From Flavisolibacter longurius (GTDB taxonomy: Bacteria; Bacteroidota; Bacteroidia; Chitinophagales; Chitinophagaceae), in the NCBI GenBank assembly GCA_014163555.1, contig JACJGO010000003.1, positions 186,001 through 250,000 on the forward strand: DNA of 64,000 nucleotides, in the 5' to 3' direction. A model generated the notes under the pieces. The model was given only the letters and a program-made list of their open reading frames with translations. It was not told the origin of the DNA and searched no databases. The position numbers and the translations under genes are program-made. Shown one piece after another: positions 6,522 through 39,799 of this stretch; position 1 is the first letter of the stretch; every line of letters begins with the position of its first letter.

Positions 6522-7060
6522 GCAAGCAATTGCTGAACGGAAAAATTGACCGTGTAGTTCCGGGTCAGATTGAATTCATTCAAATCATTTTTTTCCTGGT
6601 AGAGATTATTCTGAAGCTGGAAGATCTCTACCTGCCTTTTTCCCAGGTCAGCAATCAGGTAATACCGAACACCATAGGCCTGGTAAAGATTAAACTTGGT
6701 GTTGCGGTCTTTTAAGATCGTTGCGGGTGACAGAATTTCCAGGATGAGGGAAGGAGGATCGGTCACGAAGTTTCCCTTAATCTCTTCGCAAACAATCATT
6801 ACATCGGGGCGAACAACTGTGTCATCACTGACTTTCCAATCGGTTTCATACAAGACATCACAATTGCAATCAATTGCATTTTGGTTGAGTGCATTGGAAA
6901 AGGTGGTTACAAATTGACTTCCGAAGCGCTGGTGATGACGGTTTGGTGCAGGGCGCATCGCATACGGAATACCGCGAATCAACTCCCAGTCGCCATCCCA
7001 TATTTCGTAATCCTTGTAAGTATAGCGAGGGTAATCTTCTATGGTCAGGTTGAAACTCAT
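6518..7060 (-). CDS. Uma2-family (PD-(D/E)XK-like) putative nuclease
   Basis: A 180-residue protein of the Uma2/DUF820 family, restriction-endonuclease-like in fold and of unknown cellular role. The ordered motifs are [12 protein letters not shown] (core Asp), [22 protein letters not shown] (core Glu and Lys) and [21 protein letters not shown], all as in the family. These proteins are multicopy in cyanobacteria and some Bacteroidota, and whether they cut DNA is unsettled. It is a single gene here, overlapping folE by four bases at its 3' end and diverging from fabD with a 54-base spacer. No toxin-antitoxin partner is adjacent. Confidence 0.8.
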
Positions 7061-24818: not shown

Positions 24819-25137
24819 GGGAGCAAAGATAGCCTGAAATGAATCGTGACGGTGTGCAAAGGAATGCCAAAAAGAGGCATGCTTTTTTTGATATGACCGC
24901 ACCTGCAAAAGGTATCAACTTAAGTTAAAAAAAACAGTAAAAATTGCAAGGCTTTCGGTGAAAATTTTATTTCAGTCGACGACAAACGGGAAGTAGATTT
25001 TTTCAGAATTAAAAATTTTTTTTTGGATTTTCTTTTTCTGATATTCGTCCTCCTGTCTCAAACAAATTTTTTTATACACACCTTGTGAAAAAACTTTTAG
25101 AGCATTCTTAATCACATTTTAAACTGCTACGGAACAG
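24819..25137. other. AT-rich spacer upstream of dnaA, possible replication origin or dnaA control region
   Basis: 319 bases without a gene between purQ and dnaA. It is strongly AT-rich with long A and T runs (around 24925-24960 and 25005-25035), suited to unwinding. It contains one exact DnaA box (25072-25080) and a weaker one (TTAATCACA, 25108-25116). A cluster of boxes typical of an origin is not seen. Confidence 0.5.
25072..25080 (+). promoter_or_regulatory. DnaA box TTATACACA
   Basis: Exact match to TTATNCACA, 58 bases before the dnaA start, in an AT-rich spacer. It could be an origin element or the site of dnaA autoregulation. Confidence 0.65.
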
Positions 25138-26709: not shown

Positions 26710-26803
26710 GGTGAGGTGGATGAGTGGCTGAAATCAACGGTTTGCTAAACCGTCGTAGGGCCTTAAAGCTCTACCGAGGGTTCGAATCCCTCCCTCACCG
26801 CCA
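26710..26803 (+). tRNA. tRNA-Ser (anticodon GCU)
   Basis: The acceptor stem GGTGAGG (26710-26716) pairs with CCTCACC (26793-26799), then discriminator G and an encoded CCA (26801-26803). The anticodon stem-loop ACGGT-TTGCTAA-ACCGT gives GCT at positions 34-36, reading AGC/AGU. A long variable arm (about GTAGGGCC to GCTCTAC) marks it as class II, as for serine. The T arm GAGGGTTCGAATCCCTC is canonical. It has its own promoter and a terminator that begins at the CCA. Confidence 0.97.
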
Positions 26804-28194: not shown

Positions 28195-28210
28195 TGGTAT
28201 GATTTTTCCT
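28195..28210 (+). promoter_or_regulatory. sigma-54-like -24/-12 element
   Basis: TGGTATGATTTTTCCT: GG, eight bases, then TT, with TGG-A-TG in the -24 half. It lies 49 bases before the ATG at 28245. One of nine sites sharing the GG-N8-TT layout; this is a weaker member (TTCC rather than TTGC). Confidence 0.35.
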
Positions 28211-28230
28211 GCAACTATTTGTGCGCCTCA

Positions 28231-28246
28231 ATGAACGCTCGTTCAT
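28231..28246 (+). promoter_or_regulatory. TetR-type operator-like palindrome
   Basis: ATGAACG-CT-CGTTCAT, a perfect 7-2-7 palindrome that overlaps the start codon at 28245. The TGAACG-N2-CGTTCA pattern is a frequent TetR-family operator. No TetR gene is in the window. Confidence 0.45.
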
Positions 28247-28571
28247 GAAAAAAACCGGTGTCAATCAGGAACTGTTACACGTGTTGGTTAGTCTCTACAA
28301 TCAGTCTATCCAAACCTATTATTATTTCCCGGAGGTGATTTTTTGCGGCCGCCAGCGTATCGATCGGGAATGTTTTGAGGCATTGGTGGCTGCCGATTTT
28401 ATTACGGTTTACAAAGCGGATTCTTTTGGCCAATACTATCGCTTGAATAAAAAAGGAGAACAGTTTTTACTCAGGTTTTCGTTTCGTCGCCGGCACAGGC
28501 AAACGGACACTGTACTGGCAACAGGCCAGCGAACCTTCCCATTCAAGGAAATTTGTTCACCCCCTTGTTAA
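28245..28571 (+). CDS. hypothetical protein, 108 residues
   Basis: ATG 28245 follows an in-frame GTG at 28221 and is preferred as a normal start. The product is basic and soluble: NQELLHVLVSLYNQSIQTYYYFPEVIFCGRQRIDRECFEALVAADF looks like a winged-helix-like fold, followed by YYRLNKKGEQFLLRFSFRRRHR, reminiscent of a small DNA-binding protein, but I cannot assign a family. A palindrome covers its start and a -24/-12-like site lies upstream. The C-terminal part (TGQRTFPFKEICSPPC) is low in structure. It begins the accessory stretch. Confidence 0.6.
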   Translation: MKKTGVNQELLHVLVSLYNQSIQTYYYFPEVIFCGRQRIDRECFEALVAADFITVYKADSFGQYYRLNKKGEQFLLRFSFRRRHRQTDTVLATGQRTFPFKEICSPPC

Positions 28572-28617
28572 ATGCCCCCTTCTAAAATGGATTAAATAAA
28601 GGCAAGCCCCCGGGCAC

Positions 28618-28633
28618 TGGCATAACTTTTTTA
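28618..28633 (+). promoter_or_regulatory. sigma-54-like -24/-12 element
   Basis: TGGCATAACTTTTTTA: perfect TGGCA half and TT at the -12 spacing, but TTTT replaces TTGC. 39 bases before the small membrane protein start at 28658. Confidence 0.45.
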
Positions 28634-28657
28634 GCGGTTAAGGAAAATAAATTGATT

Positions 28658-28774
28658 ATGCCGAATTGGTTAAGAGCCCTGATAGCCGGGTATGGCGCAA
28701 GCAAATTGGGTGGCGGATGTTTAGGAACAATTATCGTTTTTGTATTGATCTACTGGTTGCTGGGCAGCTGTTAA
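28658..28774 (+). CDS. small membrane protein, 38 residues
   Basis: ATG 28658 with AAGGA about 15 bases upstream. The product is PNWLRALIAGYGASKLGGG followed by a single transmembrane segment CLGTIIVFVLIYWLLGSC. The glycine-rich turn before the helix and the short length recall conserved mini membrane proteins of Chitinophagaceae. It has a -24/-12-like site 39 bases upstream and a terminator downstream (28799). Function unknown. Confidence 0.7.
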   Translation: MPNWLRALIAGYGASKLGGGCLGTIIVFVLIYWLLGSC

Positions 28775-28798
28775 CAGTAGTGTGTCTGTAAAGGAGCA

Positions 28799-28825
28799 AA
28801 TCAGGCATCGCTGCCTGGTTTTTCT
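28799..28825 (+). terminator. intrinsic terminator of the 38-residue gene
   Basis: AATCAGGCA (28799-28807) pairs with TGCCTGGTT (28812-28820), one G-T pair, 4-base loop, then TTTCTTTT. Confidence 0.8.
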
Positions 28826-28844
28826 TTTGCTGATGCTATTATGA

Positions 28845-29324
28845 CTAAGCTTCCTGTACCGGCATTTGCGAAGGATCGAAGGCGCCTTTGCGCAGGCTAA
28901 TGCCATACTCCAGGAAAGCTTTCAGGCAGGCCAGGAAATTTGCCCAGCCTTCGGTATTGCTTTTCAGCCAGCGGATGCCATCATCTGTGGCTGCTTTTTC
29001 TCCTTCCGTGATGGTGACAAAGGTTACCGTTTCCGAAACAGGTTGTAAGGTAATGGTTACAGTTGTTTCTGACCCATCTGTATCGTTCCAGGTAAATATG
29101 ATCTCTTTGTCATCCATCACCTTTATGACCTGCACTGGAAAAGAGCCTTCCATTTCAGGAAAGGACCAATGCACGGTTTTTCCTTCTTCCATCCGGTTAC
29201 TGCCATGCGAAATAAAATAATTGGACATCTGTACCGGGTCAACGATGGCTTCAAACACAACACGTACCTGTTTGGCTACACGTAGCGCCGTTTTAATTTG
29301 CAAGGGTGAAAGTGATTGGCTCAT
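28845..29324 (-). CDS. SRPBCC (AHSA1-like) domain protein
   Basis: A 159-residue START/SRPBCC-fold protein. VFEAIVDPVQMSNYFI, GKTVHWSFPE, VQVIKVMDDKEIIFTWND, TTVTITLQPVSETVTFVTITEGEK and GWANFLACLKAFLEYG are the consecutive elements of the AHSA1/activator-like family, which have a hydrophobic ligand pocket. Ligand and role are unknown; some are co-encoded with ArsR regulators, but none is here. Gene is isolated, convergent with the small membrane protein gene. Confidence 0.85.
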   Translation of the reverse strand: MSQSLSPLQIKTALRVAKQVRVVFEAIVDPVQMSNYFISHGSNRMEEGKTVHWSFPEMEGSFPVQVIKVMDDKEIIFTWNDTDGSETTVTITLQPVSETVTFVTITEGEKAATDDGIRWLKSNTEGWANFLACLKAFLEYGISLRKGAFDPSQMPVQEA

Positions 29325-29424
29325 GCAATTGGGTTTGGTCTAAAGATAAATGTTTCCGAATTCCATAAAAGAGAGAACTGAAACCGTTGCGCAACTTAGT
29401 GAAAAGAAAATGCTAACCGCGATT

Positions 29425-29432
29425 TAGCTTTG
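29425..29432 (+). promoter_or_regulatory. -7 promoter element of the MBL-fold gene
   Basis: TAGCTTTG matches TAnnTTTG and ends 3 bases before ATG 29436. It overlaps the upstream in-frame TTG at 29430, which therefore cannot be the start; the message would be nearly leaderless. Confidence 0.6.
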
Positions 29433-29435
29433 AAG

Positions 29436-30431
29436 ATGCAGCAATCCGATCATTTTAACGGAAGGATCTATTTAAATCCCGTGGCTACCGAAACGATGGT
29501 GAAAGGCGCTTTCTGGCGTTTGTTGCAGAAGTTTTTGCAAAAGCATCCCAACCGCGAACCTGCAAAAGCCCTGGGCCCATTTTCCGTCGACAAAACAACT
29601 TTGCAAGAAAGGCCGGATTCGCTGCTTCGTGTTACCTGGCTTGGACATTCATCGCTTTTGCTGGATGTGGATGGAAAACGTTTCCTTACCGATCCGTTGT
29701 GGTATCAACGGGCCTCTCCTTTTTCCAAACTGGGGCCCAAGCGCTTTTTTCCCAATCCGTTGCCGATTGATGACCTGCCACCTATTGATGCGATCCTGCT
29801 TTCCCATGATCATTACGATCACCTGGACAAGGGCAGTATTTTAAAACTGGCGGAAAAGAATATTCCCATCATCACCATGCTGGGTGTTGGTCAAAGGCTG
29901 CTTAAATGGGGTGTCAACAAAAGTCTTGTGACAGAACTCGACTGGTGGCAAGAACTGCAACTGGGAGCACACACCATTACAGCCGCCCCGGCCCGCCATT
30001 TTTCCGGCCGTTGGCTGGGCGACCGGTTTACTACGCTATGGGGTTCCTTTGCAATCCGTGGTCCCCAACACAATATTTATTTCGGAGCCGATTCGGGTTA
30101 TTATGAGGGTTTTGCTACCATTGGAAATAAACTGGGACCTTTTGACCTGGCAATGCTGGAGATTGGTGCCTATAATGAAGAATGGGAAACAATCCACATG
30201 GGGCCGGAAAATGCAGTGCAGGCTACGTTGGATCTAAAAGCAACCTGCCTGCTACCGATTCACTGGGGTACATTCAACCTGGCCTTTCATTCTTGGACAG
30301 AACCGGTGGAAAGATTGCTTCAGGCTGCTGAAAAAGGAGGCGTACCACTGGTACTGCCCAAACCCGGGGAAACGGTTACTGTCAACGGCGAAGCCGTAAA
30401 CAGTGCCTGGTGGCAGGCGTATTCGAAATAA
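29436..30431 (+). CDS. metallo-beta-lactamase-fold hydrolase, NAPE-PLD-like
   Basis: A 331-residue soluble zinc hydrolase. TWLGHSSLLLDVDGKRFLTDPLW opens the fold; SHDHYDHLD is the HxHxDH metal motif, APARHFSGR the next histidine, FGADSGYY the bridging aspartate and LPIHWGTFNLAFH the last histidine. The arrangement, including GPKRFFPNPLPIDDLPPIDAILLSHDH, is that of the N-acylphosphatidylethanolamine phospholipase D-like branch, so a lipid substrate is plausible. No signal peptide. It is a single gene with a promoter box almost touching its ATG. Confidence 0.88.
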   Translation: MQQSDHFNGRIYLNPVATETMVKGAFWRLLQKFLQKHPNREPAKALGPFSVDKTTLQERPDSLLRVTWLGHSSLLLDVDGKRFLTDPLWYQRASPFSKLGPKRFFPNPLPIDDLPPIDAILLSHDHYDHLDKGSILKLAEKNIPIITMLGVGQRLLKWGVNKSLVTELDWWQELQLGAHTITAAPARHFSGRWLGDRFTTLWGSFAIRGPQHNIYFGADSGYYEGFATIGNKLGPFDLAMLEIGAYNEEWETIHMGPENAVQATLDLKATCLLPIHWGTFNLAFHSWTEPVERLLQAAEKGGVPLVLPKPGETVTVNGEAVNSAWWQAYSK

Positions 30432-30516
30432 TTCCAGTTTCTGAATTTTCTGCATTTTTCTTTTTCTGTGTAATTAGATAAGCGATTTTCCCCTGATTTC
30501 TAAACAGCACTGTTTT

Positions 30517-30532
30517 AGGAACGCCGCTTGCT
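30517..30532 (+). promoter_or_regulatory. sigma-54-like promoter, best match in the window
   Basis: AGGAACGCCGCTTGCT agrees with TGGCACGNNNNTTGCW except for two positions in the -24 half, and has the exact GG-N10-GC spacing. 33 bases before the histone H1-like gene. Confidence 0.55.
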
Positions 30533-30550
30533 GCACTGATAAGAAAAGCA

Positions 30551-30925
30551 ATGGCAACAGCAACAAAGAAAAATGCAACCGCTAAAAAAGGAGCAACGAA
30601 AAAAGCTTCGGCGAAGAAAAGCACTGCACGCAAAACTGCGGCAAAGAAAGGCGCCACAAAAAAGACGGTGGCTAAAAAAAGCACAACCCGCCGATCGGCA
30701 GCGAAAAAATCCACAGCAAAAAAGACGTCGGCTAAAAAAACAGCTTCTAAAAAAGCTGCAACAAAAAAAGGAAGCAGCCAGAAGAACAAACTGGGTGTAA
30801 AAAATTCGCTTGTCAACAACATCAATGCGCATAAAAAACGCGGCGATTCAAAAAGCAAAAAGAAATCGACGGTCAGCAAAAAATCTTATAAAAAGATGGA
30901 ACAGAATTGGGGCAACAAGAAATAG
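30551..30925 (+). CDS. histone H1-like Lys/Ala-rich DNA-binding protein
   Basis: A 124-residue, very basic protein. Residues 5-80 are repeats of AKK, TKK, SAKK and TARKT type, like the C-terminal tail of histone H1 and the bacterial AlgP/Hc1 proteins, which bind and compact DNA. The C-terminal part (GVKNSLVNNINAHKKRGDSKSKKKSTVSKKSYKKMEQNW) is a conserved-looking tail. Codon use varies between repeats, so it is not a recent DNA expansion. It is preceded by the best sigma-54-like site in the window and followed by small hydrophilic genes, suggesting a role in stationary phase or stress. Confidence 0.8.
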   Translation: MATATKKNATAKKGATKKASAKKSTARKTAAKKGATKKTVAKKSTTRRSAAKKSTAKKTSAKKTASKKAATKKGSSQKNKLGVKNSLVNNINAHKKRGDSKSKKKSTVSKKSYKKMEQNWGNKK

Positions 30926-30949
30926 TTTCTTTATTTAAAAACAAAGCAT

Positions 30950-31162
30950 ATGGACAACAGACAGAAAGAACAGCAACCGGCTCAGCAGCAAAATGACGCA
31001 GGCCAAAACCCAACCTTAAAAGAGGCCGGTACTTCGGTTCCGGATTATGGAAACGTAATGGGTGGTGCTTCGGATGAAACGGTACGGCAGGGAGGCGAGG
31101 AATCACGCCATGAAAACGAACGCCGTTCCGGTGGTGACAATGACACGTTGGGTAATCCCTAA
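30950..31162 (+). CDS. small hydrophilic protein, 70 residues
   Basis: A protein with no hydrophobic core: DNRQKEQQPAQQQNDAGQ at the start, then GGASDETVRQGGEESRHENERRSGGDNDTLGNP. Rich in Q, N, G, E, R and D; predicted disordered, in the manner of hydrophilins. It follows the histone-like gene by 24 bases and ends at a strong bidirectional terminator, so the two probably form a transcription unit. No family recognised. Confidence 0.65.
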   Translation: MDNRQKEQQPAQQQNDAGQNPTLKEAGTSVPDYGNVMGGASDETVRQGGEESRHENERRSGGDNDTLGNP

Positions 31163-31167
31163 ATAAC

Positions 31168-31213
31168 AAAAGGACCAAAGCCGGAACCCTGTGTTCCCAG
31201 CTTTGGTCCTTTT
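31168..31213. terminator. bidirectional intrinsic terminator
   Basis: AAAAGGACCAAAGC (31168-31181) pairs perfectly with 31200-31213; an inner GGAAC/GTTCC stem continues it. A and T tracts flank it, serving the 70-residue gene and the convergent gene at 31232. Confidence 0.93.
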
Positions 31214-31231
31214 CCATTTTCTTCTTTTTAT

Positions 31232-31513
31232 TTATTCAGTAGGATTGTTCATAATCTGTTGGGCAATCTGTTTTTTCAGGTTCTTTTCATTGATGTCTCC
31301 CGGTGAGGTAATATCGTACAGAGGCACGACCGTAGCCGTGTGGTTGTGTAAAATGGTGAAATGTTCACCCACAATTTTCTGCAATTCCGGATCATCAATA
31401 AATACGGAATAAACATTAAAAAACGGCACAGCCGTCATGCTTGTATCAATGGTTTCCACTTTGTAATGCACTACGTATCCTTTGCCATCGAACGGAACTT
31501 TAATCTTCTTCAT
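31232..31513 (-). CDS. hypothetical protein, 93 residues
   Basis: A soluble protein: KKIKVPFDGKGYVVHYKVETIDTSMTAVPFFNVYSVFIDDPELQKIVGEHFTILHN and a charged end EKNLKKQIAQQIMNN. It has mixed alpha/beta character and no family I recognise. ATG 31513 is preferred because GGGAG precedes it; an in-frame ATG at 31537 would add eight residues. It diverges from the secreted protein gene at 31647. Confidence 0.6.
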   Translation of the reverse strand: MKKIKVPFDGKGYVVHYKVETIDTSMTAVPFFNVYSVFIDDPELQKIVGEHFTILHNHTATVVPLYDITSPGDINEKNLKKQIAQQIMNNPTE

Positions 31514-31603
31514 GGATTGTTTCTTTCTCCCAAACATGAAAATTTTATACCGCTGTTTTTGACGGTAAAATATCTTTTGATAAAATGCAATTCATCGTTA
31601 TAG

Positions 31604-31619
31604 TGGCAGCACATTTGTA
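31604..31619 (+). promoter_or_regulatory. sigma-54-like -24/-12 element
   Basis: TGGCAGCACATTTGTA: perfect TGGCA, exact spacing, TTGT in place of TTGC. 42 bases before ATG 31647. Confidence 0.5.
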
Positions 31620-31646
31620 GCTATTAAATACAATAAAAATGTGTGT

Positions 31647-32201
31647 ATGAAAAGGATTGTGTTCGCCATCTTGGTTGTGATGATGGGGGCTGTAGCGGCA
31701 GAGGCTCAAACGACAAAAAAGGCTAAGAAATCTGCGCAGCAAAAAACAACAACGAAAAAAGAAAATTCACCCCAACCGGGGAATACAGATACGGTTACAT
31801 TTCGGTCTTCTGGTACGTACCAGGCTTATGGCGCCGGCCGGTTTACCATTGCCGACCCGGTAGTAAATATCTTCCGGCAACGAGCAAACGATGCGCCTGT
31901 GTCGTTTAATGGAAAAGACATTGTTGGCATGCCCGGAAGTACATATGGTATCGCCAACGGACGCATCCTGTTGCGCAATACTACGGCAACAACGCCGGGA
32001 ACAAACTATGGCAGCGGCGCTGTGGGAACAGGGACCACACTATTGGGTGTGGGCACAAGTGAAAACGCCATTTCCGTAAATGGGAAAAGTCCATATGCCG
32101 GTCCCTGGCTTTGGGGTGGAAAGCTTCCTAGCCAAAACCTGGCGCCTTTTCTTCCGGATTCTTCGAGGATACGTCGACAACCAAGAATCGCGTCATTTTG
32201 A
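31647..32201 (+). CDS. secreted hypothetical protein, 184 residues
   Basis: ATG 31647 begins a signal peptide (KRIVFAILVVMMGAVAAEAQ), followed by a Lys-rich segment TTKKAKKSAQQKTTTKK and a globular or glycine/threonine-rich domain (FRSSGTYQAYGAGRFTIADPVVNIFRQRAND, ANGRILLRNTTATTPGTNYGSG). No family recognised; likely periplasmic or surface. The frame has a GTG two codons upstream, rejected. A -24/-12-like site lies 42 bases before the start. Confidence 0.65.
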   Translation: MKRIVFAILVVMMGAVAAEAQTTKKAKKSAQQKTTTKKENSPQPGNTDTVTFRSSGTYQAYGAGRFTIADPVVNIFRQRANDAPVSFNGKDIVGMPGSTYGIANGRILLRNTTATTPGTNYGSGAVGTGTTLLGVGTSENAISVNGKSPYAGPWLWGGKLPSQNLAPFLPDSSRIRRQPRIASF

Positions 32202-32235
32202 ATGTTAATTACTATTTTATACAAATACCTGAAAA

Positions 32236-32424
32236 ATGAAAAAAGATCAAAAAAACAGGTCCGGAAGCCGGAGCAATGATAACAATCGTTCTGAAAATAC
32301 AGGGAATCGCAAGCAGGTAAGTCAGCCCGGTGCGCCAAACAAAAGCAACCGGCAGACAAAAGGCGACGATGAACGCGGACCTGTTAATGAAAGGGATACC
32401 AAACGCGGTCCAAACAGCGTCTAG
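32236..32424 (+). CDS. small hydrophilic protein, 62 residues
   Basis: KKDQKNRSGSRSNDNNRSENTGNRKQ at the start and TKGDDERGPVNERDTKRGPNSV at the end; almost no hydrophobic residues, so disordered and hydrophilin-like. It follows the secreted protein gene by 34 bases in the same direction and may share its transcript; no -24/-12 site of its own was found. Reality as a gene is supported by position and by similarity in style to the genes at 30950, 34808 and 35350, not by a known family. Confidence 0.5.
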   Translation: MKKDQKNRSGSRSNDNNRSENTGNRKQVSQPGAPNKSNRQTKGDDERGPVNERDTKRGPNSV

Positions 32425-32550
32425 GCAAGCGGGAAATCCTATTTGTAAATAGTGAGTTCGATAACGGTGCATATTGCATTGTACTCGTGTTGGCTATCGA
32501 TACGTCTGTTTGATACAGTGAGGAAACGGCATTAGGAACAATTCGTCCTG

Positions 32551-33486
32551 TCATTCCCGTCCTTCTTCTACCGAAGACAGTTTATAGTGCGTGGCATAAT
32601 GCTTTGGGCGGATCGGTATGCGCCAATGTTCTGACCATACCACGGTAAAGGCAACGCCGAAATACATGATCAGCGAAGAATAGAAAACAAAAAGCAACAA
32701 CAGTACAATGCTGGCCGAAGCACCATAAAGTGTGTTCAGATCGCTATTAACCAATAGGAGCCGGAGTACAAATTTGCCAATATTAAACAGAACACCCGTT
32801 ACCAGGGCGCCGGCAAAAGCAACCCGCCAGGGAGCCTTTGCATCCGGCAAAAGACGAAAGATGATTGCAAACCAGCAGGTGACAAATACAATGGAAAAAA
32901 AATAATTCAGGGCGCCGGCAAAGTAACTGGCAAAAGATGGCAAAACAGAAGTTATCGTAGAGTCCAGATACGCTTTTAAACCTTCGGCCAGAATACTTAA
33001 TACAAGTAAAATACCGGTGCCGGCTATGATCAGCAGCGACCGCAACCGGAGTTTAAGTTTTTGCACAAAGCCTCTTCCGGGTATAATGCGAATACCATAA
33101 AGCTGGTTTACCGAACCTTTGACAACCATGAGTAAGGTGGTGGAAACCAACAACAGAAACAAAATGCCAAACACGGTAATAAGCTTGTTTTTTGCCAGGT
33201 CGCGAAAAGCCTGCAGGATATCGATTACCTGCTGCATGGTGGTATAGCCAAGAATATCACCCAATGTCTGGTAAAGATCTTTTCTTGCCTGCGCCTTATC
33301 CAGGAAAAGACCCAGTATCTGCGATAATATTATAAGGATAAAGGGAAAGGCAAATGTGGCGAAAAAAGCTGTTGCCCCGGCCATCCGCAACGGATCGTTT
33401 TGCGAAAGCCGCTTGTATCCCTGTTTCAAAAGTGACAGGAACATGGGAAAAGAGAAACGGGCTCTTTGTTTCGCCGTTCTTACCAT
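32551..33486 (-). CDS. YihY/BrkB family integral membrane protein
   Basis: A 311-residue protein with about six membrane segments (for example FFATFAFPFILIILSQILGLF, LITVFGILFLLLVSTTLLMV, LLIIAGTGILLVLSILAEG, FSIVFVTCWFAIIFRLLP, FAGALVTGVLFNIGKFVLR and ASIVLLLLFVFYSSLIMYFG). The family was once called ribonuclease BN; that activity is no longer attributed to it. The role is unknown. A -24/-12-like site (33500-33515) lies 28 bases before the ATG. The HNH gene diverges from it. Confidence 0.88.
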   Translation of the reverse strand: MVRTAKQRARFSFPMFLSLLKQGYKRLSQNDPLRMAGATAFFATFAFPFILIILSQILGLFLDKAQARKDLYQTLGDILGYTTMQQVIDILQAFRDLAKNKLITVFGILFLLLVSTTLLMVVKGSVNQLYGIRIIPGRGFVQKLKLRLRSLLIIAGTGILLVLSILAEGLKAYLDSTITSVLPSFASYFAGALNYFFSIVFVTCWFAIIFRLLPDAKAPWRVAFAGALVTGVLFNIGKFVLRLLLVNSDLNTLYGASASIVLLLLFVFYSSLIMYFGVAFTVVWSEHWRIPIRPKHYATHYKLSSVEEGRE

Positions 33487-33499
33487 CTATTTTAAAGAG

Positions 33500-33515
33500 T
33501 GAAAAAGTCTTGCCA
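33500..33515 (-). promoter_or_regulatory. sigma-54-like -24/-12 element
   Basis: On the minus strand TGGCAAGACTTTTTCA: perfect TGGCA, exact GG-N8-TT spacing, TTTC at -12. 28 bases before the YihY start, so the leader would be very short. Confidence 0.45.
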
Positions 33516-33588
33516 TAAAACTTATTAGGAGAACAATATAGCTGTTCCGCATAATGGGAAGCAGTATTTTTTTTGAACATGGCTAAGT

Positions 33589-33876
33589 GTGCAGCAAGAA
33601 GAAGCCATTTGTCCTTTATGCGAAAGAAAACTGGCACCGCCTTACAACCGCCATCACCTGTTGCCACTTAGTAAAGGTGGTCGAGGCACCACTACCATCC
33701 TGCTGCACAAAATCTGCCACGATAAGATTCATGCTGTTTTTACCGAAATGGAGTTAAAGCGGCACTACCACACAATTGAGCGGTTAAAAGAAAATGAAGA
33801 GATCAGCGATTTTATCAACTGGGTCAGGAAAAAAGAACCGGAGTATTATGATAAATCCAACCGCAAAAAACGTTGA
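33589..33876 (+). CDS. HNH nuclease-like protein, 95 residues
   Basis: A small zinc-finger nuclease-fold protein: CPLCERKL (first Cys pair), RHHLLPLSKGGRGTTTILLHKICHDKIHAVF (HH...N/H with second Cys-His pair). The order CxxC-HH-H-CxxxxH is that of HNH endonucleases, some of which are stand-alone and of unknown role. The start is GTG at 33589 since an in-frame stop lies 15 bases upstream and no ATG is available. Its stop is adjacent to the stop of the convergent lipoprotein gene, without a gap. Confidence 0.75.
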   Translation: MQQEEAICPLCERKLAPPYNRHHLLPLSKGGRGTTTILLHKICHDKIHAVFTEMELKRHYHTIERLKENEEISDFINWVRKKEPEYYDKSNRKKR

Positions 33877-34743
33877 TCATTGAAAGGCTTTCCGAAACTC
33901 ATCTACTTTCTTTTGATCACCGGCTTCCACAACTCCCATCCATGTTTTCACAGTGGTAGCGGCCTTGGTGGATGGGTATTTCGCCAGGAAGTAAGCATAG
34001 CCTTTTTTATAATTTTCAGTGAGGGTAAGAGTGTTGTATTCCAACGAAGGAGAATTATCCGAACCCATAACAAAGGCCCGGGTATAGAAGCGATTTAGTT
34101 CTGTGGTTTTTGATTTGAATCCTTGCGGAAGCTGCTGCCCCATTAATTGCTCACTTATGGCTAACCTGTCCGCCAGTTCTTCAATTTCGATAGCCAGTCC
34201 CGCATCAAGGAACGTTGGGGTTGTATCTTCTTTTGCAACCAGGTCTAGGTAAGTATCAACTGCGGCCGTTGTGCGGTTTTTGATGCCCGGAAGAATAACC
34301 TCGTACAACGGTACCAGATACAGTCCGCCCTCGCCATCACGTACTGTTTTTAGCTGGTTGGCATACAGGATAGAGAGGGCCGTTTTTTGCTGTTCGGTCA
34401 AATTGCTGTTGGCAGAATCGGGTAAAGAATTTTGAGCATTTGTTTGCTTCAAAAGACTGTCATTTTTTGCCGATATCACGGCATCTATAAATTGCATGAG
34501 GGCAGAGGCTGCACTATCTGCCGCGATGCTGTCGATCGGAAGCATTGTGCTGAATAACTGTAAACTTTTTTCAATAACACTTGGTGCCATGGTATCCTGC
34601 TTCTTCAGGGTGTCAACAAAGTCTGCGGTGGTATACTCTTTTTCCGGAGCCGGTAGTTTTGGTGGCGTAGCAGGTTGTGTGCCGGTTTCGCAAGCATTCA
34701 GGATCAGTGAGAAAAGAGCAACCAATATCGTTAGCTGTTTCAT
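33877..34743 (-). CDS. lipoprotein of unknown function, 288 residues
   Basis: Residues 1-18 form a lipoprotein signal with lipobox LNAC (C18). The mature part begins with a Pro/Thr-rich tether and is otherwise helical (VIEKSLQLFSTMLPIDSIAADSAASALMQFIDAVISAK, LTEQQKTALSILYANQLKTVRD). No family recognised. It is the only gene on its strand here, convergent with the HNH gene and divergent from the hydrophilic gene at 34808. Confidence 0.7.
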   Translation of the reverse strand: MKQLTILVALFSLILNACETGTQPATPPKLPAPEKEYTTADFVDTLKKQDTMAPSVIEKSLQLFSTMLPIDSIAADSAASALMQFIDAVISAKNDSLLKQTNAQNSLPDSANSNLTEQQKTALSILYANQLKTVRDGEGGLYLVPLYEVILPGIKNRTTAAVDTYLDLVAKEDTTPTFLDAGLAIEIEELADRLAISEQLMGQQLPQGFKSKTTELNRFYTRAFVMGSDNSPSLEYNTLTLTENYKKGYAYFLAKYPSTKAATTVKTWMGVVEAGDQKKVDEFRKAFQ

Positions 34744-34766
34744 GGTAAGGTTTGGTAAGTAAAGAT

Positions 34767-34782
34767 TGGCATTATTCTTTCG
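34767..34782 (+). promoter_or_regulatory. sigma-54-like -24/-12 element
   Basis: TGGCATTATTCTTTCG: perfect TGGCAT, GG-N8-TT spacing, TTTC at -12. 40 bases before ATG 34808. Confidence 0.5.
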
Positions 34783-34807
34783 CCCAATCTAAAAAAATTG
34801 GTCCACT

Positions 34808-35008
34808 ATGGCAGAGGATAAAAAACATCAGGCAGGAGGTAAAGAACAAGTTCCCGAGAATGACCCCATGCATGGCCGAACGCACAACAGCCAAAACCCT
34901 GAAATAGAGGAGCAAGGCAACAAGCGGGACATAAGCGAAGTTGACCAGCAGGAAGGAAATATGAACCATGGCGAAAGTGGCGACAGACTTACACCTTCAA
35001 AACAATAA
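34808..35008 (+). CDS. small hydrophilic protein, 66 residues
   Basis: AEDKKHQAGGKEQVPENDPMHG then IEEQGNKRDISEVDQQEGNMNHGESGDRLTPSKQ: acidic, no hydrophobic core, likely disordered. Similar in style to the products at 30950, 32236 and 35350. It has its own -24/-12-like site. No family recognised. Confidence 0.6.
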   Translation: MAEDKKHQAGGKEQVPENDPMHGRTHNSQNPEIEEQGNKRDISEVDQQEGNMNHGESGDRLTPSKQ

Positions 35009-35107
35009 TTGAAGCAACTTGTAGCAGACGTAACAAAAACGGGACGGCTATTGCGTAAGAGTTTACCCGCTGAGGTTATGTTGGTTGATTCGCAACATGG
35101 CTTCTAC

Positions 35108-35123
35108 TGGCATAAAATTTTTG
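35108..35123 (+). promoter_or_regulatory. sigma-54-like -24/-12 element
   Basis: TGGCATAAAATTTTTG: perfect TGGCAT, GG-N8-TT spacing, TTTT at -12. Only 26 bases before ATG 35135, so the message would be nearly leaderless if used. Confidence 0.35.
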
Positions 35124-35134
35124 CATTGTATAAC

Positions 35135-35305
35135 ATGGAAAAGGACAAAAAAATTCTGGAGGAGCAGCCTGCTCCGCTAAAAAACAGCGACCAGGCTTTT
35201 GTACAGGTAGGCAGAGATGGCCATCCTGTTTTCCCGCAAACGGGAGAGGAAAAGAAGGATGAAACAACCAGACCTGAACGTGATACTAAGCTGGACAAGC
35301 GGTAG
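35135..35305 (+). CDS. small hydrophilic protein, 56 residues
   Basis: EKDKKILEEQPAPLKNSDQAFVQVGRDGHPVFPQTG then EEKKDETTRPERDTKLDKR. ATG 35135 is preferred; the frame remains open to a TTG at 35009, which directly follows the stop of the previous gene, so a longer 98-residue form cannot be excluded. Charged and mostly disordered. No family recognised. Confidence 0.5.
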   Translation: MEKDKKILEEQPAPLKNSDQAFVQVGRDGHPVFPQTGEEKKDETTRPERDTKLDKR

Positions 35306-35349
35306 TGGCAACAGCTAGCTAAAATATCTATCAGCAAAAATTTTTTGGT

Positions 35350-35592
35350 ATGGAAGAGCGCAAATGGGAACCGGACAGAAACGTAGGTAACCCTGATAAA
35401 GCCTACAGGGATGAATTGGCGAACAAGGGAAGTACATTTACGGATACACCTTCGGAAACCGATGCACGGGACAAGGCAAAAGTGGAAAAAGCACTGAGTG
35501 GTGAATCGCAGAAAATGGATTCCGTGCATCCCGATGAACTATTGGATTACGATGATGAAGCCATCCGCAGGGAAACGCTGGAGAACAAATAA
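35350..35592 (+). CDS. small hydrophilic protein, 80 residues
   Basis: EERKWEPDRNVGNPDKAYRDELANKGSTFTDTPSETDARDKAKVEKALSG... ending DYDDEAIRRETLENK. Highly charged with likely helices, stress-protein-like. A TGGCA with a one-base shorter spacer to TAGCT occurs at 35306-35320, 43 bases before the ATG; it may be a further variant of the shared upstream element. A hairpin of heptamer arrays follows. Confidence 0.6.
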   Translation: MEERKWEPDRNVGNPDKAYRDELANKGSTFTDTPSETDARDKAKVEKALSGESQKMDSVHPDELLDYDDEAIRRETLENK

Positions 35593-35745
35593 CGTGAAAG
35601 GTGAGATAGCAAACGTGAAACTGTAGTTTCACACGATAGTTTGTGTATTTCCAGCGAAAGCTTATTTCTCACTTCAACTTGTCAACAAGTGAACCTGTAA
35701 ACTCGTGAACGGTTACCTTTCACGTTTGCCGTCTCACCTTTCACC
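35593..35745. repeat. inverted-arm heptamer arrays with an octamer array in the loop
   Basis: Left arm 35593-35620: CGTGAAA, GGTGAGA, TAGCAAA, CGTGAAA. Right arm 35718-35745: TTTCACG, TTTGCCG, TCTCACC, TTTCACC. The arms pair at 25 of 28 positions. In the loop, 35675-35710 holds four and a half units of 8 bases of the form NAACNNGT (CAACTTGT, CAACAAGT, GAACCTGT, AAACTCGT). The element lies between the 3' ends of two convergent genes. Confidence 0.85.
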
Positions 35746-35749
35746 GCTA

Positions 35750-36007
35750 TTACTTCAGTTGCCCTTTTAAAAATCCTTCTATTGCATTGCAGGGAACCAT
35801 AAACGGTTTATCGGTAATGCTGATGTTGAGAATATTGCCGCTAACGGTGTAATTGCCTACGATCTTATTGCCGAAAACCGAAACGGTAAAATCGCCGTTA
35901 TTGGTATCGCCGTTAAAATTTCCTCCCTGGCTTTGTACCGTACTCTTTGCTTTTGCCAGAACTTCCTCCGGGCTTCCTGTAAATGGAATCGAAAAATCAC
36001 ATGCCAT
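35750..36007 (-). CDS. hypothetical protein, 85 residues
   Basis: A small soluble protein: ACDFSIPFTGSPEEVLAKAKSTVQSQGGNFNGDTNNGDFTVSVFGNKIVGNYTVSGNILNISITDKPFMVPCNAIEGFLKGQL. The pattern of one helix followed by beta strands and a final helix suggests a compact alpha/beta fold, but I know no name for it. It lies 19 bases downstream of the degenerate receiver gene on the same strand, so probably one operon. Confidence 0.65.
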   Translation of the reverse strand: MACDFSIPFTGSPEEVLAKAKSTVQSQGGNFNGDTNNGDFTVSVFGNKIVGNYTVSGNILNISITDKPFMVPCNAIEGFLKGQLK

Positions 36008-36026
36008 GACTATATTTTTTACAAGG

Positions 36027-36413
36027 TTACGGATTTGATTTATGCAACGACATCTGTTTGTTTATCAGGTTGGCAACATTGTCGATCTCTTTTACTGGTT
36101 TGGTCACTACATCATCTGCCCTGCAATCACCAATGGTTGCTCGGTGGCTAGAATTGCCTGGTATCAGTAGGAGCACTGGAATGTTTAAATCCGTCATCAG
36201 GTGTTTGCAGACATCATATTCATTAAATCCCGTCATCTCCGGATTGGCAAGAACCGCTACCGGCCGCAGGCTTTTTGCACTCTTCACTAATTCAGTGGCA
36301 TCTGTTAGAATAACCACTTCAAAATCTCGGTTGCGCAGGCCGCCTTCCAGTGTAAAGGAATGATCAGCATCGTTATCGCAGACCAGTACCACTTTTTGAA
36401 CTCTCTTATCCAT
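36027..36413 (-). CDS. degenerate receiver-domain protein (phosphoacceptor Asp replaced by Asn)
   Basis: A 128-residue stand-alone receiver fold: VVLVCDNDADHSF (acidic residues near D13/D15), VAVLANPEMTGF where N57 occupies the position of the phosphorylated aspartate, and VVTKPVKEI with K105. The residue that is usually Ser/Thr is Pro (LLLIPGNS). It therefore cannot be phosphorylated in the ordinary way and may act as a constitutive or ligand-driven pseudo-receiver. ATG 36413 chosen over a GTG upstream. A palindrome (36450-36461) and a -24/-12-like site (36435-36450) lie before it. Confidence 0.75.
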   Translation of the reverse strand: MDKRVQKVVLVCDNDADHSFTLEGGLRNRDFEVVILTDATELVKSAKSLRPVAVLANPEMTGFNEYDVCKHLMTDLNIPVLLLIPGNSSHRATIGDCRADDVVTKPVKEIDNVANLINKQMSLHKSNP

Positions 36414-36434
36414 ATCTGTCGTTTTCAAAAGGTT

Positions 36435-36450
36435 CACAAGGATAGTGCCG
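36435..36450 (-). promoter_or_regulatory. sigma-54-like -24/-12 element
   Basis: On the minus strand CGGCACTATCCTTGTG: GGCAC, exact spacing and TTGT. 36 bases before the receiver start at 36413. It abuts the palindrome GCACTGTAGTGC at 36450-36461. Confidence 0.5.
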
Positions 36451-39783: not shown

Positions 39784-39799
39784 TGGCATTGCATTTTGT
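39784..39799 (+). promoter_or_regulatory. sigma-54-like -24/-12 element
   Basis: TGGCATTGCATTTTGT: perfect TGGCAT with GG-N8-TT. It lies 73 bases before the TPR gene start, further than the others, so it is less certain. Confidence 0.3.

Follow-up and report, generated by a model that had tools for sequence, protein, structure and literature searches.

Genes between 28.2 and 36.5 kb of a stretch of Flavisolibacter longurius DNA (contig JACJGO010000003.1; the whole stretch of 64,000 nucleotides is called the window below) share an upstream element that resembles the -24/-12 promoters of sigma-54 (RpoN), whose canonical consensus is TGGCAC-N5-TTGC. That this element is enriched in the region and kept at similar distances in relatives is well supported. 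The elements are probably sigma-54 promoters, most of which would form a sub-class, GGYAYRRTTTTTT (termed T-type here), served by a second sigma-54 factor, RpoN2, with the activator and kinase encoded alongside it. As read from its letters, the window is a mixture of putative T-type and canonical TTG-type sub-classes. A sequence-only reading had earlier assigned these genes to one sigma-54-like regulon; the sigma-54-like element stands, and the single regulon is not proven, given two sub-classes and no recognizable activator site.

The layout GG-N8-TT is present at all nine full-length sites named in that reading, whose coordinates for minus-strand sites were the low end (T-GG ends at 33515 and 36450). 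For the statistics, the region contributed 17 genes, with start codons placed by hand because a simple gene caller missed 28658 and mis-started 35135, and the comparison set consisted of 325 called genes taken from 19 randomly placed 20-kb segments of the F. longurius genome. Because the region had been picked for these very sites, all p-values for it are flattered. GG-N8-TT lies 26–50 nt before the start of 10 of the 17 region genes and of 54 of the 325 genes elsewhere (p = 1.8e-4), a background that makes the layout cheap and therefore weak evidence for any single gene. TGGCA, either exact or with one mismatch outside GG, is found at the same distance before 7/17 and 15/325 genes (p = 2e-5), so that the motif is not, as would have told against the sequence-only reading, equally common before random genes; exact TGGCA precedes 5/17 and 3/325 (p = 8e-6). 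Scored in the same way, the T-type matrix described below reaches at least 10 in 6/17 region genes (reversed control 1) versus 12/325 (reversed 2; p = 7.6e-5), and a score of 12 in 3/17 (reversed 1) versus 4/325 (p = 0.003). Two of the six, at 31552 and 34805 on the minus strand, were absent from the earlier list.

The matrix was seeded with TGGCA alone, restricted by a hard threshold and trained on 18 rpoN2 loci from other genera; it replaced a first, over-fitted version that had called 175 sites in 286 regions. Its consensus is T-GG-C/T-A-Y-R-R-T-T-T-T-T-T. At a score of at least 11 it matches 53 of the 286 upstream regions of the training set (reversed control 1), and the 17 matches on the opposite strand of these regions may in part be divergent promoters. 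In eight held-out rpoN2 loci from the same genus, 37 of 168 upstream regions score at least 10 (reversed 1), and 5 of 21 carry a match in the genome's own rpoN2 locus. The element is thus dense around rpoN2, compared with 11/284 in random DNA of the same genome (reversed 2) and 23/958 around 76 other Bacteroidota rpoN genes (reversed 9). Spacing is constrained as well: within 120 nt upstream in 20 rpoN2 loci, TGGCA-N5-TTT occurs 28 times and the N6 form 24 times, with shoulders that come from the T-run at N3 (11), N4 (15) and N7 (8), 0 to 2 occurrences at each of N8 to N14, and 5 at N15.

Both halves of the element have a defined composition. GG occupies -25/-24; in 85 sites, the first base of the TGGCA half is T in 53, and its third variable base is C in 48 or T in 33. 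The T-run spans -18 to -13, with T at -13 in 75/85, A in 10/85 and G in 0/85, and therefore the canonical GC is not encountered; C stands at -12 in 22/85. The same T-run was visible in many sites of a list of upstream TGGCA occurrences compiled before the matrix. The sequence-only reading had noted that the -12 half is often TTTC, TTTT or TTGT; in most sites it is TTT, which marks a distinct sub-class and not a weak TTGC. In upstream regions picked by matrix score, the T-type element stands out as the principal conserved stretch upstream of YtxH genes (10 genomes) and likewise of genes for DUF2383, a 96-aa protein and a hydrophilic protein. Purines climb to 81% at position 27 of the aligned sites, near the predicted +1. 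Within the F. longurius genome, the strict pattern TGGYAYRNWTTTTW has 17 matches, of which 13 are intergenic and 11 lie 27–72 nt before a start; by eye, several of the genes behind these 11 encode lipoprotein-like or small hydrophilic proteins.

The genome (5.66 Mb in 58 contigs) contains the regulators whose presence the sequence-only reading had proposed to check: two rpoN genes and four strong, full-length activator genes, plus five weak AAA matches. RpoN1 and RpoN2 are both full sigma-54 proteins with AID, CBD and DBD domains. RpoN2, of 488 aa and encoded on contig 10, matches PF00309, PF04963 and PF04552, aligns to solved sigma-54 and keeps the RpoN box (ARRTVAKYRE). Its gene is accompanied by those for a sigma-54 activator, a receiver-PAS-histidine kinase and a receiver-only protein, and the locus further encodes DUF892, TopoIB, DUF2383, YihY, holin-like, YtxH and small hydrophilic proteins. 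A sample of 79 genomes from the family contains 20 with RpoN2, and these are set apart by an empty interval in identity from 45% down to 39%. Of 16 further members of the genus that were checked, 14 have it, and the remaining two are genomes of less than 80% completeness. Among the matches listed, its best named relatives are all from Bacteroidota, namely a Chitinophagaceae metagenome-assembled genome (53%), Ohtaekwangia (52%) and two Dyadobacter (47%). The neighborhood is conserved: the activator is found in 17/19 of the relatives' rpoN2 loci versus 7/76 other rpoN loci (and in 4/4 named rpoN2 loci), the kinase in 18/19 versus 11/76, and the receiver-only protein in 11/19 rpoN2 loci once 6 cross-matches to the activator's own receiver are subtracted from 17/19. 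Autoregulation through a T-type site was considered and rejected, as most loci have no site scoring at least 9 before rpoN2, the activator gene or the kinase gene. In one locus (L010), two T-type-like matches at 6932 and 6952 on the minus strand (scores 10.5 and 9.0) lie 53 and 73 nt before rpoN1.

A palindrome, TGTAGAA-N4-TTCTACA, is perhaps the binding site of the activator. With at most one mismatch, rpoN2 loci from other genera hold 10 copies in 350 kb and those from the genus a single copy in 200 kb; none was found in 380 kb of random DNA of the same genome, the 64-kb window or 1419 kb of other rpoN loci. With at most two mismatches, 15 of 30 palindromes in 32 RpoN2-type loci have an outward-pointing T-type site 20–220 nt away, compared with 1437 of 5400 intergenic positions drawn at random from 18 of the loci. 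Genome-wide, the form TGTRGAA-N4-TTCYACA is found in 13 of 20 genomes with RpoN2 versus 9 of 59 without it (p = 5e-5; reversed pattern, 6/79). In one of the latter genomes (G096), it stands beside an activator 63% identical to that of F. longurius. A shorter dyad, TGTA-N8-TACA (5/38 vs 6/199), and GTGTA-N8-TACAC were not clearly enriched and were set aside. The only TGTRGAA-N4-TTCYACA of the F. longurius genome (L327, contig C2, 7232–7249) lies within called coding DNA, with another called gene beginning 131 nt downstream, and the genus member G003 has one (L326) 150 nt upstream of a similar-looking gene, as judged by eye. In another genome, G061, where no RpoN2 was found, the palindrome at L323 precedes by 159 nt a gene for a 61-aa protein, CsbD-like by eye, with a canonical-type TGGCATTATTCTTGTA in between.

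It is important to ask whether RpoN2, rather than RpoN1, would read the T-type elements. These could be standard sigma-54 promoters, used by RpoN1 or equally by both factors, with TTT at -12 as a looser consensus and RpoN2 as a bystander, an explanation that we consider unlikely while giving it more weight than any other alternative. Thirty DUF892 loci were listed per group, and one of them, L187, was excluded as the second part of a match that had been split; a T-type site then precedes DUF892 in 15/29 loci of genomes with RpoN2 versus 5/30 of genomes without it (p = 0.005), or in 13/27 (p = 0.011) when two positive loci from training stretches are left out. In RpoN2-lacking genomes, several DUF892 genes have TGGCAY 39–71 nt before the start, followed by varied, T-rich -12 halves, which fits reading by RpoN1 and also means that sigma-54 control of DUF892 may predate RpoN2. 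The canonical class is in use too, as judged by 25 canonical-type sites chosen in G000 (5 exact and 20 one-mismatch, among 100 places listed), of which 11 are intergenic and 9 lie 34–104 nt before a start. What argues for a role of RpoN2, besides the DUF892 comparison, is the density of T-type sites around rpoN2 and not around the 76 other rpoN genes. In addition, comparison of 16 RpoN1 with 19 RpoN2 sequences shows 11 clade-specific columns. Two of these are fixed differences in a putative -12-reading helix (SRVANSK vs SRITxNK), which aligns to the helix of solved sigma-54 that reads the -12 element.

Two further explanations carry less weight. The element might belong to another factor and mimic the -24/-12 layout, being either a repressor operator or half of a promoter of the extracytoplasmic function (ECF) or sigma-70 family. 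The lack of G at -13 in T-type sites would agree with this, and the sequence-only reading had itself allowed for another sigma factor. Nearly all information in 86 rpoN2-locus sites is confined to positions 0–13, with weak signals at 17 and 27–31; no strong second element follows downstream (TAnnTTTG in 1/86). Called starts come no closer than 27 nt in a scan that allowed at least 19. Such a minimum suits a -24 element and would be low for a -35 element, and this explanation appears improbable; the called starts of two of the 53 training sites, at 17 and 18 nt, may be wrong. Chance matches in AT-rich intergenic DNA, picked by eye, are the least credible explanation and very improbable. The common background of GG-N8-TT, the choice of the region by its reader, an unsupported site at 35306 and a minus-strand site at 36450 that lacks a comparable ortholog would speak for chance; against it stand the enrichment by patterns and by matrix, the recovery of several of the same sites by a matrix from other genera, and the retention of most of them at similar distances in orthologs.

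Several observations weigh against the assignment of T-type promoters to RpoN2 and of the palindrome to its activator. Only 4 of 49 upstream regions in the four named RpoN2-type loci score as T-type (reversed 1), YihY regions of other relatives give 8/174 (reversed 4), and for the window, when starts are left uncorrected, the figure is 3/55 (reversed 1). The absence of G at -13 is partly built in, because the matrix selects T there. T-type sites also precede the five DUF892 loci mentioned above in genomes without RpoN2. The genome-wide motif count, which the sequence-only reading had put forward as a check, is uninformative by itself: TGGYAYRNWTTTTW is found 17 times in the F. longurius genome versus 21 times for the reversed pattern, and whole-genome counts of TGGCAYNNNWTTTTW show no visible separation of genomes with and without RpoN2. 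Such counts do not discriminate, and the signal therefore exists only with gene context. As for the palindrome, none is found at up to two mismatches in the window, and the rpoN2 loci of the genus hold only 8 at this stringency in 200 kb. It was first noticed in rpoN2 loci, and outside the fetched loci the comparison falls to 9/20 versus 9/59 (p = 0.009). It also falls in called coding DNA in both F. longurius and G003.

Based on these data, a simple model would suggest that a stress or starvation signal leads to phosphorylation of the activator, which has a receiver-AAA-Fis architecture. The phosphorylated activator would bind the palindrome upstream of some targets and drive RpoN2 polymerase to open T-type promoters, resulting in expression of small membrane, hydrophilic and DNA-protecting proteins; induction by stress is suggested by gene content. 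Genes 30551 and 31647, with a canonical TTG(C) -12 half, may instead use the ordinary sigma-54, RpoN1. More generally, and tentatively, a branch of Bacteroidota may run a general stress response through a second sigma-54 whose shifted helix reads a T-run in place of the -12 GC, with a regulon split from that of RpoN1. The activator and palindrome may be older than RpoN2, because a genome in which RpoN2 was not detected has an activator of 63% identity next to the palindrome.

Individual sites in the window are listed in the table below, together with orthologs from fetched stretches; those in G014, G008, G006 and G003 keep many of the elements. The site at 31604 and that before the histone H1-like gene look canonical, because two relatives of the former read TTTGC, with GC at -13/-12, and because GG and TTG are kept before H1-like genes. 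The latter, at 30517, had been singled out as the best site; its likeness to the canonical type holds, and with the T-type matrix it scores negatively. The earlier list missed the conserved minus-strand site at 31552. Of its two additional sites, that at 39784 is retained in relatives, and a variant at 35306 does have the shorter spacer described for it and is rejected, as it fails the T-type matrix and is kept in 0/3 orthologs. Orthologs of genes for which the earlier list gave no site mostly lack a strong site as well, the exceptions being the orthologs of 31232 (minus strand) and the G014 ortholog of 33877 (minus strand). The intergenic space 31513–31647 holds a divergent pair, one T-type and one canonical-type, both conserved. 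A strong T-type match (16.0; AGGCATGCTTTTTTTG) lies at 24875–24890 on the plus strand; dnaA follows 263 nt downstream, and the plus strand has no called gene in the interval. Within 24–42 kb, the only RNA element above Rfam thresholds is a tRNA at 26710.

Table. Putative promoter elements and selected target genes in the window (scores are from the T-type matrix)
Feature	Position	Strand	Context	Score or domain match	Orthologs in relatives
T-type element TGGTATGATTTTTCCT	28195..28210	+	26 nt before 116-aa gene 28221	10.6	similar in 4/4 by eye; 2/4 at score of at least 9
T-type element TGGCATAACTTTTTTA	28618..28633	+	40 nt before 38-aa membrane protein gene 28658	15.9	kept in 3/3 (13.2, 19.7, 21.1 at -39/-40)
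Canonical-type element AGGAACGCCGCTTGCT	30517..30532	+	before H1-like gene 30551	-3.2	GG and TTG at equal spacing before both H1-like genes found (G008, G006), by eye
T-type element CGGTATAAAATTTTCA	31537..31552	-	39 nt before gene 31232–31513	11.6	3/3 (12.6, 10.9, 15.7 at -37 to -41)
Canonical-type element TGGCAGCACATTTGTA	31604..31619	+	43 nt before gene 31647	5.2	kept in 3/3, reading TGGCAGTGCCTTTGCA, TGGCAGTTCATTTGCG, TGGCAGTGCATTTGTG
T-type element TGGCAAGACTTTTTCA	33500..33515	-	29 nt before YihY/BrkB gene	12.8	4/12 same-genus orthologs at score of at least 9 (-27 to -30 in G014, G006, G003; -66 in G015)
T-type-like element TGGCATTATTCTTTCG	34767..34782	+	41 nt before 66-aa hydrophilic protein gene	5.9 (weak)	kept in 2/2
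Weak T-type element TGGACCAATTTTTTTA	34790..34805	-	62 nt before gene 33877–34743	10.4	kept in G014, not in G008
T-type element TGGCATAAAATTTTTG	35108..35123	+	27 nt before 56-aa gene 35135	14.1	kept in 1/3
Possible canonical-type element CGGCACTATCCTTGTG	36435..36450	-	before receiver gene 36413	-5.2 (pattern only)	none found for comparison in fetched stretches
T-type-like element TGGCATTGCATTTTGT	39784..39799	+	74 nt before TPR gene 39858	7.6 (weak)	kept in 2/2 close relatives (9.3, 8.8); whole upstream similar there
Histone H1-like (HC2-like) protein	30551..30925	+	target gene	PF07382, E 1.1e-7, below Pfam cut-off	
YihY/BrkB-family membrane protein	32551..33486	-	target gene	PF03631, E 6.7e-34	
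Degenerate receiver-domain protein	36027..36413	-	possible target	PF00072, E 1.6e-6, just below cut-off	

The T-type elements share with canonical sigma-54 promoters GG at -25/-24, TGGCAY, TT at -15/-14, the spacing and the distance to the start codon, in a genome with rpoN and activators. They differ in having T or A and never G at -13, no specificity for C at -12, and a T-run from -18 to -13. RpoS, SigB and EcfG are general stress sigma factors, none of which is known in Bacteroidota. DUF892 (YciF-like), YtxH, H1-like and small hydrophilic proteins resemble their targets, whereas RpoN2 belongs to the sigma-54 class, which works with an activator, and not to the sigma-70 family. A sigma-54 running stress-type genes would, if confirmed, fill this gap in Bacteroidota, an uncommon role for a factor usually regarded as specialized, and a common promoter type would provide hints to the function of small proteins of unknown role.

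In predicted sigma-54 regulons across phyla, Bacteroidota chaperone genes fall under sigma-54, and about 5% of organisms have multiple rpoN copies (PMC12316311); the part of that paper at hand mentions no Bacteroidota sigma-54 paralog that has a -12 type or stress cluster of its own. Among the papers listed by literature searches, none was recognized as an account of a second sigma-54 stress system in Bacteroidota. Precedents are Rhodobacter sphaeroides, whose RpoN1 and RpoN2 promoters are distinguished by -11 alone, and Bradyrhizobium japonicum, with two sigma-54 consensuses that differ only at -12 (PMC3162934). As in F. longurius, rpoN is present in multiple copies in both, and the promoter sets diverge in the -12 half. 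If the model holds, the code by which -12 is recognized could be tested directly, as the two paralogs would pair fixed helix differences with corresponding sub-classes of promoter. The present case differs from these two in that it comes from another phylum, that the promoter difference covers -13 and the T-run, and that the second sigma factor goes with stress-type genes rather than with flagellar or nitrogen genes.

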